Positions 28,913 to 35,183 of a stretch of DNA of 64,000 nt are shown here, in pieces; positions within the stretch are counted from its first letter, which is position 1, and the number at the start of each line of letters is the position of its first letter. The position numbers and the translations under genes are program-made. The notes under the pieces were generated by a model. The model saw nothing but the letters and a program-made list of their open reading frames with translations, ran no database searches and was not told the origin of the DNA. Source of the DNA: Ensifer sp. IC3342 (GTDB lineage Bacteria; Pseudomonadota; Alphaproteobacteria; Rhizobiales; Rhizobiaceae); assembly GCF_020193655.1 (NCBI RefSeq), contig NZ_JADYVE010000001.1, forward strand, positions 1,116,001-1,180,000, given 5' to 3'.

Positions 28913-30094
28913 ATGCATGTAACTCCGCTCTCGGCGATCGGTGACGGCATGGATCCCGGCTTCGGGGTCTATGTGCACTGGCCGTTTTGCGCGGCGAAGT
29001 GCCCCTACTGCGATTTCAATAGCCATGTGCGCCATCAGCCGGTGGATCAGCCGCGCTTCGTTACGGCCTTCCTGCGGGAAATGGCGGAAGCGCGCGAACT
29101 CTCTGGTCCGCGGACGGTCACCAGCATCTTCATGGGCGGCGGCACGCCTTCGCTGATGGATCCGGCGACCGTCGATGCAATCCTCAACGGCATCGCCAAC
29201 CACTGGCACGTGCCTGATGGCATCGAGATCACCATGGAGGCCAATCCGTCGAGCGTCGAGGCGACACGCTTCCACGGCTATCGTGCCGCCGGCGTCAACC
29301 GCGTCTCGCTCGGCGTGCAGGCGTTGAACGACCGGGATCTCAAATTCCTGGGGCGGCTGCACAATGTCGAGGATGCACTGAAGGCTGTCCGGCTGGCGCG
29401 GGAAGTTTTTCCCCGCATGTCGTTCGACTTGATCTATGCCCGCCCGAATCAGACCGTCGAGGACTGGGAGCGGGAATTGAAGGAGGCGGTCTCCTACGCG
29501 GTCGACCATCTCGCGCTCTATCAATTGACGATCGAGGAAGGCACGCCCTTCTACGGGCTGCACAAGGCCGGCAAGCTCGTCGTTCCGGACGGCGAGCAGT
29601 CGGCCGTGCTCTACGAGGCGACGCAGGAGATCACAGCGTCAATCGGCATGCCGGCCTATGAAGTGTCCAATCACGCACGGCCAGGTGCGGAAAGCCGGCA
29701 CAATCTCACCTATTGGCGCTATGGCGACTATGCAGGCATCGGCCCCGGCGCCCACGGACGCCTGACGACCGCGGGCGCGAAGGTGGCGACGGCGACGGAA
29801 CGCAAGCCCGAGGAATGGCTTCGCCTCGTGGAAGAGCAGGGCCACGGCATGATCGAGCGCGAACTGCTGGACCGTGAGGCCCAGGCCGACGAACTCCTGT
29901 TGATGGGCCTTCGGCTCAGGGAAGGTGTCGATCTGGCCCGCTGGCAGAGCCTTTCCGGCCGCGATCCCGACCCCGATCGCGAACAGTTCCTGATTGAGCA
30001 CGGGTTCATCGAACGGCTCGGCAACTCACGGCTGCGCTGCACGCCGGCCGGCATGCTGATCCTCGACGCGGTGGTCGCCGATCTCGCCTGCTGA
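28913..30094 (+). CDS. hemW: Radical SAM heme chaperone HemW (HemN-like)
   Basis: HemW binds heme and a radical-SAM 4Fe-4S cluster and delivers heme to membrane proteins. It was formerly annotated as oxygen-independent coproporphyrinogen III oxidase. The 393-residue protein has the cluster motif FCAAKCPYCDFNSHV (CxxxCxxC) near residue 24. SIFMGGGTPSLM, NRVSLGVQALNDRDLKFLGR and ISFDLIYARP-like MSFDLIYARPNQT follow, with a HemN C-terminal domain. It is the last gene of the rph-VOC-rdgB run. It lacks the extra N-terminal region of true HemN. Confidence 0.93.
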   Translation: MHVTPLSAIGDGMDPGFGVYVHWPFCAAKCPYCDFNSHVRHQPVDQPRFVTAFLREMAEARELSGPRTVTSIFMGGGTPSLMDPATVDAILNGIANHWHVPDGIEITMEANPSSVEATRFHGYRAAGVNRVSLGVQALNDRDLKFLGRLHNVEDALKAVRLAREVFPRMSFDLIYARPNQTVEDWERELKEAVSYAVDHLALYQLTIEEGTPFYGLHKAGKLVVPDGEQSAVLYEATQEITASIGMPAYEVSNHARPGAESRHNLTYWRYGDYAGIGPGAHGRLTTAGAKVATATERKPEEWLRLVEEQGHGMIERELLDREAQADELLLMGLRLREGVDLARWQSLSGRDPDPDREQFLIEHGFIERLGNSRLRCTPAGMLILDAVVADLAC

Positions 30095-30156
30095 TGGGAG
30101 CAATAGCAGCGACAGCCGAGCGCGGAGATTGCCCCGCACCTTGTCCCTCTCCGCGC

Positions 30157-31023
30157 TCAATCGCCTTTCTTAACCGGCGCAACAATCGCCCAACTGATGC
30201 CGAAGGGATCGCGAAGCTGCCCGTAATAATCGCCCCAGAAGGCGACCTCCAATGGCATCGTCACCTCCGCGCCCGCGGCGACGGCACGCTTCCACCAGAA
30301 ATCCGCGTCGTTGACGACGAGATGCAGAACGACGCCCTCCTGTGGCTTCCACGGGTAACCGAATTCCGGGAACGGATCGTTCAGCATCAGTGCGCCGCCA
30401 TTGATCGTCAGATGGCAGTGGATGAGGCGTTTGCCGTCCTCGGCATATTTGCGGTCCACCTCCTTGGCGCCGAACGCACGGCCGTAGAATTCCGCCGTGA
30501 CATTCGCGTCCTGGACGTTGAGATAGGCGATGACGCCGGCCATCGGCGGGCGCGACGGCGCTTGCCAATCGACCTCTGATGTCGGATCGAGGTCGATCGC
30601 CGCCCTGAAGCTCCCGTCCATGTAGAAGGGCACCGACTCGTGCTGGTGGGCGATCTTCCATCCATCCTCCGTACGCTTCAAACCCAGCGTCTGGCGAAAC
30701 CAGAGTGCGGCCTTTTCGCCGTCCAGTTTCTCGCCGGAGAGATGGGTGAGCGCCGTCGCGAAGGCGACGTCGCCGCCTGCCGAGATTTCCAGCTCCTGAA
30801 GCCGGTAGCCGAGCGGCCCCTTCCAGGTGGAGAACCACTGCTCAAGGCCCTCGGCGCCGGCCGCTGTTTCCTTAAGAGGCGGCGCCAGCGAATAGACAAG
30901 GCAATCTTCCGTGCCGTGGGCAAGCACGCGACGCGCGTCCTTCTCGCGCATGGCGCCTGCCCAATCCTCGATCACCGCACGAATCTCGTCGACGGCGGCG
31001 GTTCTCTTTCTGATGTCGGACAT
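30157..31023 (-). CDS. SnoaL-like/VOC fusion protein
   Basis: A 288-residue two-domain protein. Residues about 8-130 form an NTF2/SnoaL-like ketosteroid-isomerase fold (AVIEDWAGAMREKDARRVLAH, then GWKIAHQHESVPFYMDG). Residues about 160-285 form a PhnB-type VOC domain (VIAYLNVQDANVTAEFYGRAFG, LNDPFPEFG, GQLRDPFGISWAI). The function is unknown; such proteins are often encoded with DGPF/ECF42 sigma genes, as here. It is downstream of the AHSA1 gene on the same strand, with a 137-bp gap that contains half of a palindromic repeat. The start has AAGGAGATG upstream. Confidence 0.82.
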   Translation of the reverse strand: MSDIRKRTAAVDEIRAVIEDWAGAMREKDARRVLAHGTEDCLVYSLAPPLKETAAGAEGLEQWFSTWKGPLGYRLQELEISAGGDVAFATALTHLSGEKLDGEKAALWFRQTLGLKRTEDGWKIAHQHESVPFYMDGSFRAAIDLDPTSEVDWQAPSRPPMAGVIAYLNVQDANVTAEFYGRAFGAKEVDRKYAEDGKRLIHCHLTINGGALMLNDPFPEFGYPWKPQEGVVLHLVVNDADFWWKRAVAAGAEVTMPLEVAFWGDYYGQLRDPFGISWAIVAPVKKGD

Positions 31024-31099
31024 GGTTCATCTCCTTGATCAACGGGGAGGCGGAAACCCGCTGCACGTTTCCTTGGACCGGAATCGATTCAAGGGCAAA

Positions 31100-31142
31100 A
31101 CATGCAGCAAATTCCAAGTTCTACAGCGACCTTTGTGCGTGG
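31100..31142 (-). repeat. Dispersed palindromic element (half copy)
   Basis: AACATGCAGCAAATTCCAAG is followed by CTACAGCGACCTTTGTGCGT, the same two blocks in the same order as at 2290-2340. The second arm of the palindrome is absent or replaced by GGGCCGCCGGCCC. Confidence 0.5.
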
Positions 31143-31160
31143 GCCGCCGGCCCGCTCGTC

Positions 31161-31643
31161 TCAGAGTCTTGCGACAAGCGCGGCGAGCTGGTCGGCGCAT
31201 TGACCCCAGCCCTCATGAAAACCCATCTTTTCGTGCGCTTCCCGGTCCGCCACGCTCCAGTGGCGGGCGCGGGCGGTGTAGCGGGTCTTGCCGTTCTCGT
31301 CCTCGAATGTCAGGATCGCCGTCATGAAGGGCTTTTCCGAAGGCTTCCAGGCTTCTGTGTATGCATCGGTCAGGACCAGCTTTTCGTTCGGAACAACCTC
31401 CAGATAGACGCCCTGATTGGGATAGAGCTCGCCCTCCGGGGAGCGCATGACGAACCGGTTGGTACCACCTGGCCTCACATTGAGCTCCGCTTCCGTGATC
31501 GTCCACGGCAAGGGTGCAAACCATTGCTTCAGGAGCTCCGCATCCGTGAAGGCGCGATAAACCTTTTCGCGTGGCGCATCGATGAGGCGGGTGAGCACCA
31601 GTTCGCGCTCGTCGGCGGGCTTGATGTCGGTCGCTGCATTCAT
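31161..31643 (-). CDS. AHSA1/SRPBCC (activator of Hsp90 ATPase-like) protein
   Basis: A 160-residue single SRPBCC domain: LVLTRLIDAPREKVYRAFTD near residue 15, LLKQWFAPLPW near 38, then NRFVMRSPEGELYPNQGVYL. It ends EGWGQCADQLAALVARL, as in START/AHSA1-like ligand-binding proteins often linked to DGPF/sigma loci. The start is ATG 31643, with GGAGG 7 bases upstream; the TTG two codons before is rejected. A TGTCGG-N17-CGTC promoter motif lies 33 bp upstream, matching that before the YciI-sigma operon. Confidence 0.85.
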   Translation of the reverse strand: MNAATDIKPADERELVLTRLIDAPREKVYRAFTDAELLKQWFAPLPWTITEAELNVRPGGTNRFVMRSPEGELYPNQGVYLEVVPNEKLVLTDAYTEAWKPSEKPFMTAILTFEDENGKTRYTARARHWSVADREAHEKMGFHEGWGQCADQLAALVARL

Positions 31644-31675
31644 TTTCAATTCCTCCGTGGTGATTTCGGTCTAAG

Positions 31676-31702
31676 GACGAAGCGGAAAATCAGAGTCCGA
31701 CA
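31676..31702 (-). promoter_or_regulatory. Candidate ECF42 promoter before the AHSA1 gene
   Basis: The minus strand reads TGTCGG (31702-31697), 17 bp, CGTC (31679-31676). Motif and spacing are identical to the element at 33389-33415. The -10-like CGTC lies 32 bp before the start codon. Confidence 0.6.
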
Positions 31703-31718
31703 GCGACAGCCAAAATTT

Positions 31719-32993
31719 TTATTGTTTTTCCTCGGCAAGGTGCGGGCGACCTGTTTCCGCCGCAAGATGATCGAGCTGCATGCGGATATAGGCGGCCTCT
31801 GCCGCGTTCGTCGCAAGAGCAATGGCGCGGTCGAACGCGACGCGCGCTTCCCCGGCGCGCCCCATCTGCTTGAGCAGCCCCCCGCGCAGACCATGATAGT
31901 AGAAATAGCCCGAGAGCCTTTCGCCAAGCGGCTCGACCAACGCCAAGGCAGCTTCCGGTCCCTCGCGCTTCGACACTGCGACGGCGCGATTGAGGGTGAC
32001 GACGGGCGACGGTTGCAGACGTTCGAGCGTCTGATAGAGCAGGTCGATTTCTTCCCAGTCCGTCAGTTCGGGACGCTCGGCCCGCGCATGAAGTGCCGCA
32101 ATGGCGGCCTGGACCTGGTAGGGGCCGGGACGCCGGTGCCGCATGGCCTTGTCGATCATCGCGAGCGCCTCGGTGATCATTCCCCTGTTCCACAGCCGCC
32201 GGTCCTGATCTTCGAGCAGGACGATGGCGCCATGTGCATCGAAGCGCGCGCGGGCACGCGAATGCTGGAGCAGAAGCAGCGCGGTCAGCCCCATGATTTC
32301 CGGTTCGGCCGGAAACAGTCTGAGGAGCAGCCGGGCGAGCCGGATCGCCTCGTCGCATAGATCCGCCGACACCCCCTCGGGGCCATTCATCGCCGAATAG
32401 CCTTCGTTGAAGACGAGATAAATCATCGTCGCCACCGCCGCGAGGCGCTCGGCGCGGTCAGCGGCATCGGGCGTCTCGAAGGGAATCCCCGCCGCCGCGA
32501 CGCGCGCCTTGGCGCGGGTGATGCGCTGCTCCATCGCCGCCTCGCTGACCAAGAAGGCGCGCGCGATCTGCCTGACGGAGAGGCCGGAGACGACCCGGAG
32601 CGCCAGCGCGATTTGCTGGGTCGCCGGCAGGGCGGGATTGCTGCAGACGAAGAGCAGCCGCAGGATGTCGTCGCGGTAATGCGAGCCGTCGAGGCGGTCG
32701 GCGAGTTCGCTCTCCCTGTCTTCGAGGTCCGACAGCAATTCCTCCGGCGGCAGCACCGTTTCGCGCGCTTGGCGCCGCACCTTGTCGATGCCGCTGTTGC
32801 GGCCGACGAAGATCAGCCAGGCCGCGGGATCCCGCGGCGGGCCACTCTTCGGCCAGGCCTTCAATGCCCGGATGCAGGCCTCCTGGAAGGCTTCCTCGGC
32901 CATGTCGAGATTGCGAAAATAGCGCAGGAGCGCGCCCATCGCCTGCGGCCGGGCGGAAACCAGAGCGAGGTCGATCCAGGCAGTGTCTGTCAT
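31719..32993 (-). CDS. ECF42-type RNA polymerase sigma factor with C-terminal extension
   Basis: A 424-residue extracytoplasmic-function sigma factor. Sigma region 2 lies at about residues 18-78 (GALLRYFRNLDMAEEAFQEA; DPAAWLIFVGRNSGIDKVRR) and region 4 at about 105-165 (LRVVSGLSVRQIARAFLVSE, EQRITRAKAR). A long C-terminal helical, TPR-like extension begins with the group hallmark YLVFNEGYS (192-200) and contains TLNRAVAVSKREGP. In group ECF42 this extension takes part in controlling activity, and no anti-sigma gene is present here. The gene overlaps the upstream DGPF/YciI gene by ATGA, the diagnostic ECF42 partnership. It probably controls its own operon and the AHSA1 gene. Confidence 0.93.
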   Translation of the reverse strand: MTDTAWIDLALVSARPQAMGALLRYFRNLDMAEEAFQEACIRALKAWPKSGPPRDPAAWLIFVGRNSGIDKVRRQARETVLPPEELLSDLEDRESELADRLDGSHYRDDILRLLFVCSNPALPATQQIALALRVVSGLSVRQIARAFLVSEAAMEQRITRAKARVAAAGIPFETPDAADRAERLAAVATMIYLVFNEGYSAMNGPEGVSADLCDEAIRLARLLLRLFPAEPEIMGLTALLLLQHSRARARFDAHGAIVLLEDQDRRLWNRGMITEALAMIDKAMRHRRPGPYQVQAAIAALHARAERPELTDWEEIDLLYQTLERLQPSPVVTLNRAVAVSKREGPEAALALVEPLGERLSGYFYYHGLRGGLLKQMGRAGEARVAFDRAIALATNAAEAAYIRMQLDHLAAETGRPHLAEEKQ

Positions 32994-33364
32994 GAGGGAA
33001 GCTCACCGGGTTTATAGAGAGCGAGCGGGCGGATCTCGTAGGAGCCCGAGCTCGGATTGGCGGTACTGAGGTCGCGGGCGAAGTCGAGGGCCTCGTCGAG
33101 CGATCCGCAATCGATCAGGTAGAAGCCGAGCAGTTGCTCCTTGGTTTCGGCGAAGGGGCCGTCGATGACGATTGTCTCGCCTGGGGCATGGCGCAGCGTG
33201 GTGGCCGCCGTCGTAGGCAAGAGGCGCGCAACCGGCCCCAGCTTGCCGGCTTCGACATACTTGCGCTGGACGCCGGTAAGATCGCGCATGACCCTGTCCT
33301 CCTCCTCCTTGCTCCACGCACTCGTGACACTTTCATCGTTGTAGCAAAGCACCGCATAAAGCAT
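32990..33364 (-). CDS. DGPF/YciI-family protein
   Basis: A 124-residue YCII-related protein beginning MLYAVLCYNDESVTSAWS and containing the name-giving IDGPFAETKEQLLGFYLIDC (about residues 62-81), then the EALDFARDLS helix. The biochemical role of DGPF proteins is not established. Their genes are typically next to ECF42 sigma factors. The start is set by GAGGAG eight bases upstream and a family-typical length; the frame is open 44 codons further without support. Its TGA overlaps the ATG of the sigma gene, so translation is coupled. Confidence 0.92.
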   Translation of the reverse strand: MLYAVLCYNDESVTSAWSKEEEDRVMRDLTGVQRKYVEAGKLGPVARLLPTTAATTLRHAPGETIVIDGPFAETKEQLLGFYLIDCGSLDEALDFARDLSTANPSSGSYEIRPLALYKPGELPS

Positions 33365-33388
33365 TGAAAACTCCTCGGCTGGTCTGAA

Positions 33389-33415
33389 GACGAATGGAGC
33401 TAGTGATAGCCGACA
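33389..33415 (-). promoter_or_regulatory. Candidate autoregulated ECF42 promoter before the YciI-sigma operon
   Basis: The minus strand reads TGTCGG (33415-33410), 17 bp, CGTC (33392-33389), 24 bp before the YciI ATG. It resembles the TGTCGA/CG(A/T)C-type promoters I recall for ECF42 and is duplicated before the AHSA1 gene. Confidence 0.6.
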
Positions 33416-33572
33416 AGCGAGGCGAAAAAAATGAATCGATTGCGGAATTGGCCCGCCGGCGGGTGAGAAAAAATGCGCATGGTCTTGCGCCCGCATCCCG
33501 CTCCAATCCTTATGGCGAGTTCACGCTCGCGATTCTGGTTCGACTCGGTCCAAAATCGCAGCATGCGCGCAA

Positions 33573-33599
33573 CAAAAAAAGGCCCGGCGGAACCGGGCC
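33573..33599 (-). terminator. Rho-independent terminator of dnaA
   Basis: GGCCCGG-CGGAA-CCGGGCC stem-loop, followed on the minus strand by seven T's, 36 bp after the dnaA stop. Confidence 0.9.
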
Positions 33600-33635
33600 A
33601 ATTCGTAGGCTTCAGCCTACCTATCGACGGATTGC

Positions 33636-35183
33636 TTATTCGTTGATCAGCCGCTTCAAGAGTTCGATCTCATGGCTGAGCTTCGTATCCGCCGCGATCA
33701 TCTCTTCGATCTTGCGAACCGCATGCAAGACGGTCGTGTGATCGCGACCACCAAAGCGTCGGCCGATTTCCGGGAAGGAGCGCGGCGTCAGGGTCTTCGA
33801 CAGATACATGGCGATCTGCCGTGGCTTGACGATGACGCGCGTGCGGCGGTTCGACACCAGTTCCTGGCGCGATACGTTGTAGTGCTTGGCGACGACGCGC
33901 TGGATGTCCTCGATGCGGACGCGGCGCGGTTCACCGGCATTGACCAGGTGACCGAGCAGTTCGTCGACGCGCTCGATCGAAAGCTGCGGCTCGAAGGAGC
34001 GACGGAAGAGCAGCTGGTTGAAAGCGCCCTCCAGTTCGCGGCCGCTGGCCGTGACATTGCGCGCGACATGGCAAAGGATATCGGTCGGAATATCGAGCGA
34101 TGCGTCATCCTGGCGCGCGGCCTCGAGCCGCCGCTTCAGCATCTCCAGGCGCATCTCGTAGTCCGGACCTTCCATCTCGATCGCAACACCGCCCTGAAGC
34201 CGCGAGCGAACGCGGCTGTCGAGCGATTCCAGCTCCCACGGTGCGCGGTCGGCAGCGACCACGACCTGTTTGGCCGAGTCGAGCAGCATGTTCAGGAGAT
34301 GGCAGAACTCGTGCTGGATCGACTTGCCCTGCAGGAACTGCATGTCATCGATCACCAGAAGATCGATGTTGCGCAGCGATTCCTTGAGAGATAGAGCGTC
34401 GTTGTCGCGGATCGCGGTCGCGAAGCGCCACATGAAGTATTCCGCCGTCAGATAGACGACGCGTGGCGCCCGCGCGCTCTGCAGGGCGGCAATTGCGATC
34501 GCCTGCAGGAGATGCGTCTTGCCGAGCCCAACGCTTGAATGGATGAAGAGCGGATTGAAGCGCACCGCGCCGGCGCCAGCCTCGGCGATGGTGCGCGCGG
34601 CTGCAAGCGCCACCCGGTTCGACGAACCTTCGACGAAACTGTCGAAATTGTAGCGCTGGTCGAGCGGCGAGCCGAAAAGCGGTGCCTGGGCCGGTTTCTG
34701 GACCGCTGCCACCGCCGCCGCGGCGACCGAGGCAATCGGCTGGGCCGCTGCCGGACGGCGTACCGGGGCCACCGGAGCCGTTTCTGCCGCCGCCGGCATC
34801 GCGTCTTCGTGGGCAGCCGGACGCGCACCGCGCGTTGCGGTGCGGACGAGGATTTCCACCTTCAGAATTTCGCCGTCTTCCTGCTGGAACAGACTGGTGA
34901 TGAGATCGAGATATCGGTTGTTGATCCAGGACTTCAGAAACGTCGTGGGCACCGAAAGACGTACAACGCTCTTGGAAATCGAATGGAGCTTGAGACGTCC
35001 AAACCAGCTTGCGAAGACATCCGGACCGACTTGAGCTTTCAAACGCTGACTTACGCGCTCAAAAAGTGCGTCATGCCGCATGTCCTGTTTTTCCCCCGCC
35101 GCCTGAGACTGATTGCTTCCGGCCTGACGCGCGTCAGGTGCCGTCGCCAAATTCATCTGCATGTTGCCGCCTTCCAAATTCAT
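33636..35183 (-). CDS. dnaA: Chromosomal replication initiator protein DnaA
   Basis: DnaA binds DnaA boxes at oriC, melts the origin and loads helicase. The 515-residue protein has domain I ([19 protein letters not shown]), an Ala/Pro-rich variable linker (about 120-170), and the AAA+ domain. The latter carries Walker [15 protein letters not shown] (GKT at 221-223), Walker [14 protein letters not shown], and sensor and box VII motifs. The C-terminal DNA-binding domain contains [19 protein letters not shown]. Three starts are possible: MNLEGGN (used, SD very close), MQMNLAT with GGAAGG well placed, and MRHDALF. The catalytic protein is unaffected. It is followed by a strong terminator and preceded by a 0.9 kb region rich in GANTC. 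Confidence 0.97.

Follow-up and report, generated by a model that had tools for sequence, protein, structure and literature searches.

An RpoE10-type ECF42 sigma factor locus of Ensifer sp. IC3342, its conserved promoters, and a predicted regulon of about ten units

Introduction

A closely comparable sigma factor locus has been described in Sinorhizobium meliloti, where SMc01150, named RpoE10 and classed as ECF42, adjoins the YCII gene SMc01151 (Lang et al., 2018; PMC6180224). Table 1 of that study gives TGTCGG-N17-CGTC before SMc01151, SMc01149, and SMb20475 (PMC6180224). Overexpression of RpoE10 in strain Rm1021 raised six genes, four of which, forming the operons SMc01149-SMc01148 and SMb20475-SMb20474, went up twofold or more, the rises of these four named genes spanning 1.1–1.8 log2 units (PMC6180224). 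The transcription start of SMc01149 was mapped by RNA-seq together with 5′-RACE and, by our count on the published sequence, lies 9 nt after CGTC (PMC6180224). SMc01151 itself showed no change under RpoE10 overexpression, and the authors point out an overlap between its motif and its mapped start (PMC6180224).

The extension of ECF42 sigma factors is of TPR nature and has been proposed to control their activity, its sigma4-proximal part being required. ECF-10 of Pseudomonas putida was reportedly studied by Tettmann in 2014, and group work on the Streptomyces venezuelae and Xanthomonas campestris sigma factors is said to have come from Liu in 2018 and Wu in 2019.

Here we describe the corresponding locus in a 64,000-nucleotide stretch of Ensifer sp. 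IC3342 DNA, referred to as the window. In kind, the locus is already known: it is an RpoE10-type system whose promoters were mapped in a sister species (PMC6180224). The window thus confirms published work from another species, and the useful part of the analysis is comparative: about ten units predicted to form a regulon, together with two extra, putative promoter features. No description of an extended ECF42 regulon appeared among the titles, abstract openings, and paper passages covered by a literature search, which leaves that absence unproven.

Genes of the locus

All features of the locus lie on the minus strand of the window. The sigma operon opens with a yciI/DGPF-type gene at 32990..33364 (PF03795, YCII, E 7.5e-20), followed by the gene for the ECF42-type sigma factor, the RpoE10 orthologue, at 31719..32993 (424 aa). 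The two genes overlap at 32990-32993, which bears out the ATGA coupling read in the first-pass annotation. A YciI homologue stands directly 5′ of the sigma gene in 81/81 orthologous loci, a set consisting of the window and the best 80 of 502 relatives from a contig scan with the sigma protein. Downstream lie an AHSA1/SRPBCC gene (31161..31643; PF08327, E 2.3e-37), the target of the second promoter, and a SnoaL-glyoxalase (VOC) fusion gene (30157..31023; PF13474 and PF00903). Judged by position and promoter sequence, the yciI gene is the orthologue of SMc01151; on the same grounds the AHSA1 gene is that of SMc01149 and, by its position, the fusion gene is that of SMc01148. The fusion gene is probably the second gene of the AHSA1 transcription unit, because SMc01149 and SMc01148 are predicted to form an operon in S. 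meliloti (PMC6180224). Upstream of the operon, an intrinsic terminator (33581..33599; an 8-pair stem, then TTTTTTT) lies 3′ of a gene that we read as dnaA, and so sets the operon promoter apart from dnaA. No anti-sigma gene was found among the neighbors read (dnaA, yciI, sigma, AHSA1, SnoaL/VOC), nor any additional gene between these, as the first-pass annotation had held for the anti-sigma gene.

The intergenic stretch between the AHSA1 and SnoaL-VOC genes (31024-31160) is a dispersed repeat, with copies in 5/35 other stretches compared from the same genome (L001, L132, L137, L138, and L141) at 77–87% identity across 53–87 bp. We take it to be, possibly, a palindromic element of the RIME type.

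The sigma protein

The 424-aa translation carries both YLVFNEGY and a long C-terminal extension, just as had been read from the sequence at the outset. A YLVFNEGY-type signature is a feature of the ECF42 group; among the best 80 of 502 relatives it takes the form YLVFNEGY in 73/80 and YLIFNEGY in 7/80. The Pfam matches comprise Sigma70_r2 (PF04542), Sigma70_r4_2 (PF08281), DUF6596 (residues 183-284, E 5.3e-35), and a weak TPR. PF04542 and PF08281 are the sole sigma-region models matched in Pfam, with no other sigma-70 regions. Past region 4 the protein extends for about 260 residues, with DUF6596 inside this extension. Its length is that expected of the long ECF42 extension, and TPR repeats are weakly seen: TPR_21, at residues 365-411, is the only TPR model matched and scores below its curated cut-off. 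Among 25 of the 26 NCBIfam families listed for the protein, the general sigma70-ECF family alone exceeds its cut-off, and a search of solved structures gave three weak matches, confined to the sigma regions. The earlier assignment to ECF42 is upheld by the DUF6596 extension, by the YCII neighbor, and by the lack of an anti-sigma gene among the neighbors. One DUF6596 match was found in this genome, the sigma gene; a second DUF6596 (ECF42-type) match above cut-off occurs in 6/20 genus genomes (L318-L323).

Two promoters in the window

Promoter 1 (33389..33415), before yciI and the sigma gene, is made up of TGTCGG at 33415-33410, N17, and CGTC at 33392-33389. Promoter 2 (31676..31702), before AHSA1, repeats the arrangement with TGTCGG at 31702-31697, N17, and CGTC at 31679-31676. 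Both pairs stand where the first-pass annotation had placed them, with a spacer of exactly 17 bp, and its distances to the ATG, 24 nt for promoter 1 (YCII gene) and 32 nt for promoter 2 (AHSA1), are likewise correct. The group ECF42 promoter has a −35 of TGTCGA or, more loosely, a TGTCG-type −35 with a CG[AT]C −10, and a TGTCG-type −35 and a CG[AT]C −10 are found at both window motifs. Promoter 1 is nearly identical in sequence to the SMc01151 motif (PMC6180224). By analogy with SMc01149, transcription from promoter 2 is predicted to start at 31667, 9 nt after CGTC. Starts had been predicted 5–9 bp after CGTC, and the S. meliloti value falls at the edge of that range (PMC6180224). The further claim, that a second promoter serves the SRPBCC and SnoaL-VOC genes, finds its support in S. 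meliloti as well, where SMc01149-48 is RpoE10-induced (PMC6180224).

Across the 7.42-Mb genome, TGTCGG-N17-CGTC occurs at 37 places versus 16 for the reversed pattern. At this genome density, any one 60-bp upstream stretch, read on one strand, would contain a match with a probability of about 1.5e-4, and two such matches would come together with one of about 2e-8. Within the window, the loose pattern TGTCGR-N16-18-CGWC gives 12 matches versus 3.7 expected, and TGTCGG-N16-18-CGTC gives 4 versus 0.9. The motif alone is not decisive; position and conservation are.

Conservation of the promoters

TGTCGR-N17-CGWC stands 5′ of yciI in 77/81 loci (76/80 without the window; best 80 of 502 relatives), and in a scan allowing spacers of 16–18 the matches at those promoter positions were N17. 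The exceptions are three Neorhizobium-type loci that are one base off (GGTCGG; L053, L055, and L065) and one locus with no match (L083). Among the best 80 of 502 relatives and the window, the downstream promoter is present in 28/28 Sinorhizobium/Ensifer-type loci (the window and L006-L032), and in other clades it is present in 33/53 loci, 1230–2800 nt from the sigma start. The expectation that orthologous loci should keep both motifs is thereby borne out. In 23 of the 28 Sinorhizobium/Ensifer-type loci the second promoter is followed by AHSA1, and in the other 5 by a 131–137-aa membrane protein; in other clades, AHSA1 follows 26/33 downstream promoters (best 80 of 502 relatives). In the five Ensifer loci concerned (L027 and L029-L032), the membrane protein, DoxX-like by reading, begins about 35 nt past the downstream motif in place of AHSA1. 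Similar-looking membrane proteins follow the second promoter in five Bradyrhizobium loci (L073, L075, L076, L079, and L082).

A further element of both promoters is an A/T tract upstream of TGTCGG, at 33425..33432 in promoter 1 and at 31712..31723 in promoter 2, where it overlaps the 3′ end of the sigma gene. Scored as five or more A/T in a row between −23 and −6 (6–23 nt 5′ of TGTCGG), it is present in 77/77 operon promoters and 57/61 downstream promoters of the window and the best 80 of 502 relatives. In these promoters, nine further 18-nt intervals scored alike contain such a run in 0–10/77 and 0–18/61 cases, respectively. Because the run is confined to −23 to −6, the tract is tied to position and does not reflect general intergenic A/T richness. 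This comparison with neighboring intervals supersedes an earlier background of 6.2%, drawn from random, mostly coding positions. Conceivably, the tract is an UP element.

A candidate wider regulon

When GAGG and an ATG were also required, five sites were left in this genome versus none for the reversed pattern; they precede yciI, AHSA1, a PhnB-type VOC gene, a DUF1428 gene, and a VOC gene. A reading of all 37 sites added RibD_C (36 nt), alpha/beta-hydrolase (50 nt), GST (97 nt), and a second PhnB gene (about 230 nt), while at the remaining 28/37 sites no gene of these families was recognized by eye. Compared with the sites at 24–50 nt, the second PhnB site (L141, leader 112–232 nt) and the GST site (~100 nt) carry less weight as candidates. 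With degenerate boxes (TGTCGR/CGWC, RGGA, and ATG) the rows numbered 9 for N17, 17 for N18, and 8 for N16, and no gene of these families was seen by eye behind the N16 and N18 boxes. Since N18 rows outnumbered N17 rows, the bare N17 count of the loose pattern was discarded as evidence. The regulon was argued from the identity of the genes, from the control with reversed patterns, and from conservation.

In 20 Sinorhizobium genomes, this one included, YTGTCGG-N17-CGTCYT occurs at 139 places versus 22 for the reversed pattern (row sums). Of these places 121 were examined, the other 18 being taken as copies of the two sigma-locus promoters, as judged by spacer sequence and by position within ~1 kb of a DUF6596 match. 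Each was compared by tblastn (E 1e-6, start within 330 nt) with ten reference genes, from the families VOC/PhnB, DUF1428, RibD_C, GST, hydrolase, DUF6958, AHSA1, and yciI. A reference gene follows 99/121 sites and is missing behind 22/121, a proportion that is partly circular because the ten references were chosen after the motif matches had been seen; some of the GST and PhnB matches are 29–40% identical. Forty other genomes of the family gave 60 places versus 31 reversed (row sums), a modest excess concentrated in few of them. With its one DUF6596 match, this genome points to one sigma factor as the natural candidate.

Several observations accompany these counts. In four genomes (G006, G002, G003, and G004) a second motif faces away from the DUF1428 motif and precedes another PhnB-like gene; the divergent pairs (L203/L204, L232/L233, L237/L238, and L268/L269) are ~95 bp apart in three of them and ~20 bp apart in G003. 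In the list of TGTCGG-N17-CGTC sites from the window's own genome, no exact second site stands beside DUF1428. In four relatives (L173, L205, L242, and L250) the motif lies 25–29 nt before a small protein, a candidate target family; the L205 protein, when scanned, proved to be DUF6958, and tblastn matched the remaining three to it.

The CTATC element of the operon promoter

Promoter 1 contains a second conserved element, CTATC (33405..33409), at the start of its spacer. CTAT occupies spacer positions 1-4 in 27/28 Sinorhizobium/Ensifer-type operon promoters (best 80 of 502 relatives and the window) and occurs anywhere in the spacer in 2/28 second promoters of these loci. Across the 28 loci, the mean pairwise identity of the operon promoter spacer is 93.5% at positions 1-5 versus 54.7% at positions 6-17, and positions 1-5 of the downstream promoter spacer in the same 28 genomes reach 45.6%. 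In other clades a comparable feature sits elsewhere: TA at spacer position 10 is present in 46/49 operon promoters versus 2/61 downstream promoters (best 80 of 502 relatives). That the promoter 1 motif is kept in 77/81 loci means that the site matters, in whatever mode it may be used. An operon promoter that is conserved yet apparently unresponsive poses a specific puzzle.

Weighing the alternatives

The motif copies beyond the window might be chance occurrences, leaving a regulon of this locus and the published SMb20475 unit. Such a reading would accommodate the sites that match no reference gene, the reversed pattern's own 22 sites in 20 genomes, and the small number of genes that responded in S. 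meliloti (PMC6180224), but we regard it as highly improbable in view of the excess of 139 over 22 and of two tests that began from the orthologues: the DUF1428 site is present in 17/19 genomes that have the gene, both misses retaining a recognizable site in which the first T differs, and the RibD_C site is present in 19/20. Among distant RibD_C paralogues, 0/9 carry the N17 site, and L317 has an N18 version. The A/T tract, which played no part in the choice of sites, argues in the same direction, being present at 77/99 reference-gene sites versus 0/22 of the others (Fisher p 2.7e-12, uncorrected for relatedness); in nine other intervals the 99 sites show a run in 0–16 cases, so that here again it is confined to −23 to −6. 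A tension nevertheless exists with the published response. In S. meliloti genome G005, taken as 4H41, the motif precedes RibD_C, VOC, DUF1428, and GST-like genes; set against the six genes raised in Rm1021, a strain that differs from G005, this means that most predicted targets have not been seen to respond (PMC6180224). Either the distant sites require the activating signal, or their response was too small to detect, or RpoE10 does not target them. The published rises of 1.1–1.8 log2 units (PMC6180224) suit a sigma factor that stays largely inactive in the absence of its signal.

With regard to the operon promoter, a simple model, in line with the first-pass annotation, has the sigma factor activating its own operon through promoter 1 and driving just the neighboring AHSA1-SnoaL/VOC genes. 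The motif before yciI in 77/81 loci (window and best 80 of 502 relatives) agrees with this model, and ECF sigma factors are commonly autoregulated (PMC3616915). However, self-activation was not seen in S. meliloti, where SMc01151 failed to respond to RpoE10 overexpression and has a mapped start that overlaps its motif (PMC6180224), and further copies of the motif stand before genes of related families; the model appears unlikely to us. A tentative alternative, possible though short of probable, is that promoter 1 is composite. CTATC, within the ECF42 spacer, would possibly serve as −10 for a housekeeping promoter that overlaps the ECF42 one and supplies basal YciI and sigma factor; the two holoenzymes would compete, so that overexpressed sigma factor brings no net rise. 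A nested −10 of this kind would explain both the overlap of the S. meliloti start with the motif and the absence of a net response there (PMC6180224). The near-invariance of the first five spacer positions in the operon promoter, as opposed to the second promoter, and the TA of other clades are consistent with such an arrangement. Against it, the candidates for a −35 are weak by eye, the position of the spacer element differs between clades, and a repressor site would give an identical picture. A consensus scan of 30000-34000, with an E. coli-type consensus, returned no sigma-70-like site, for which reason the nested promoter is put forward as hypothetical.

Proposed mechanism and implications

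The reading that we prefer for the locus as a whole, and consider very probable, is that of an RpoE10-type ECF42 sigma factor with promoters of the form A/T-TGTCGG-N17-CGTC at AHSA1, at its own operon, and at about seven unlinked sites. Once active, the sigma factor would direct RNA polymerase to promoters composed of the A/T tract, TGTCGG, a 17-bp spacer, and CGTC. Promoter 2 would drive AHSA1-SnoaL/VOC, as overexpression and start mapping showed in S. meliloti (PMC6180224). Promoter 1, which precedes the yciI-sigma operon and is strongly conserved, may be used otherwise, self-activation not being seen in S. meliloti (PMC6180224). The seven or so further sites, before VOC/PhnB, DUF1428, RibD_C, GST, and hydrolase genes, would belong to the same regulon. 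Activity would probably be set by the C-terminal TPR-type extension and not by an anti-sigma factor, as has been proposed for the group. We infer that the A/T tract contributes to promoter function and that AHSA1 is induced in this strain in the same manner.

Somewhat less securely, but still with moderate confidence, sequence comparison suggests that one Sinorhizobium ECF42 sigma factor serves about ten dispersed units through a three-part promoter, and that the spacer element of the operon uncouples it from simple self-activation. The units comprise two PhnB-type VOC genes, another VOC gene, DUF1428, RibD_C, GST, alpha/beta-hydrolase, AHSA1-SnoaL/VOC, and the yciI operon, with DUF6958 counted among them in some species. 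If true, the regulon would be larger than the six reported genes and would hint at a coordinated response that detoxifies small molecules. Reviews treat the signal to which ECF42 sigma factors respond as not known. The three-part promoter with its roughly ten conserved targets would provide a concrete reporter set for finding it.

Comparison with described ECF42 systems

The −35 element of the loci compared here departs from that of the group at large, reading TGTCGG in 73/77 operon promoters (window and best 80 of 502 relatives) versus TGTCGA. Streptomyces venezuelae (Sven_0747 and others) and Xanthomonas campestris have ECF42 sigma factors that carry a long TPR-type extension required for activity and, as here, lack an anti-sigma factor (PMC8103513, PMC8999054, PMC9023288). 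Pseudomonas putida ECF-10, another ECF42 sigma factor, has comparable genomic surroundings according to Lang et al. (PMC6180224). The RpoE10 study itself concerns another species and deals with three promoters and six induced genes; its accessible text makes no mention of the VOC, PhnB, DUF1428, RibD_C, GST, and hydrolase sites predicted here, nor of an A/T tract or a conserved spacer element (PMC6180224). Otherwise the likeness of the two loci is close. In S. meliloti, as in the window, no anti-sigma gene was identified, the genes follow in the order yciI, sigma, hydrophobic-ligand-binding-domain gene, and glyoxalase-type gene, and TGTCGG-N17-CGTC stands before both SMc01151 and SMc01149 (PMC6180224).
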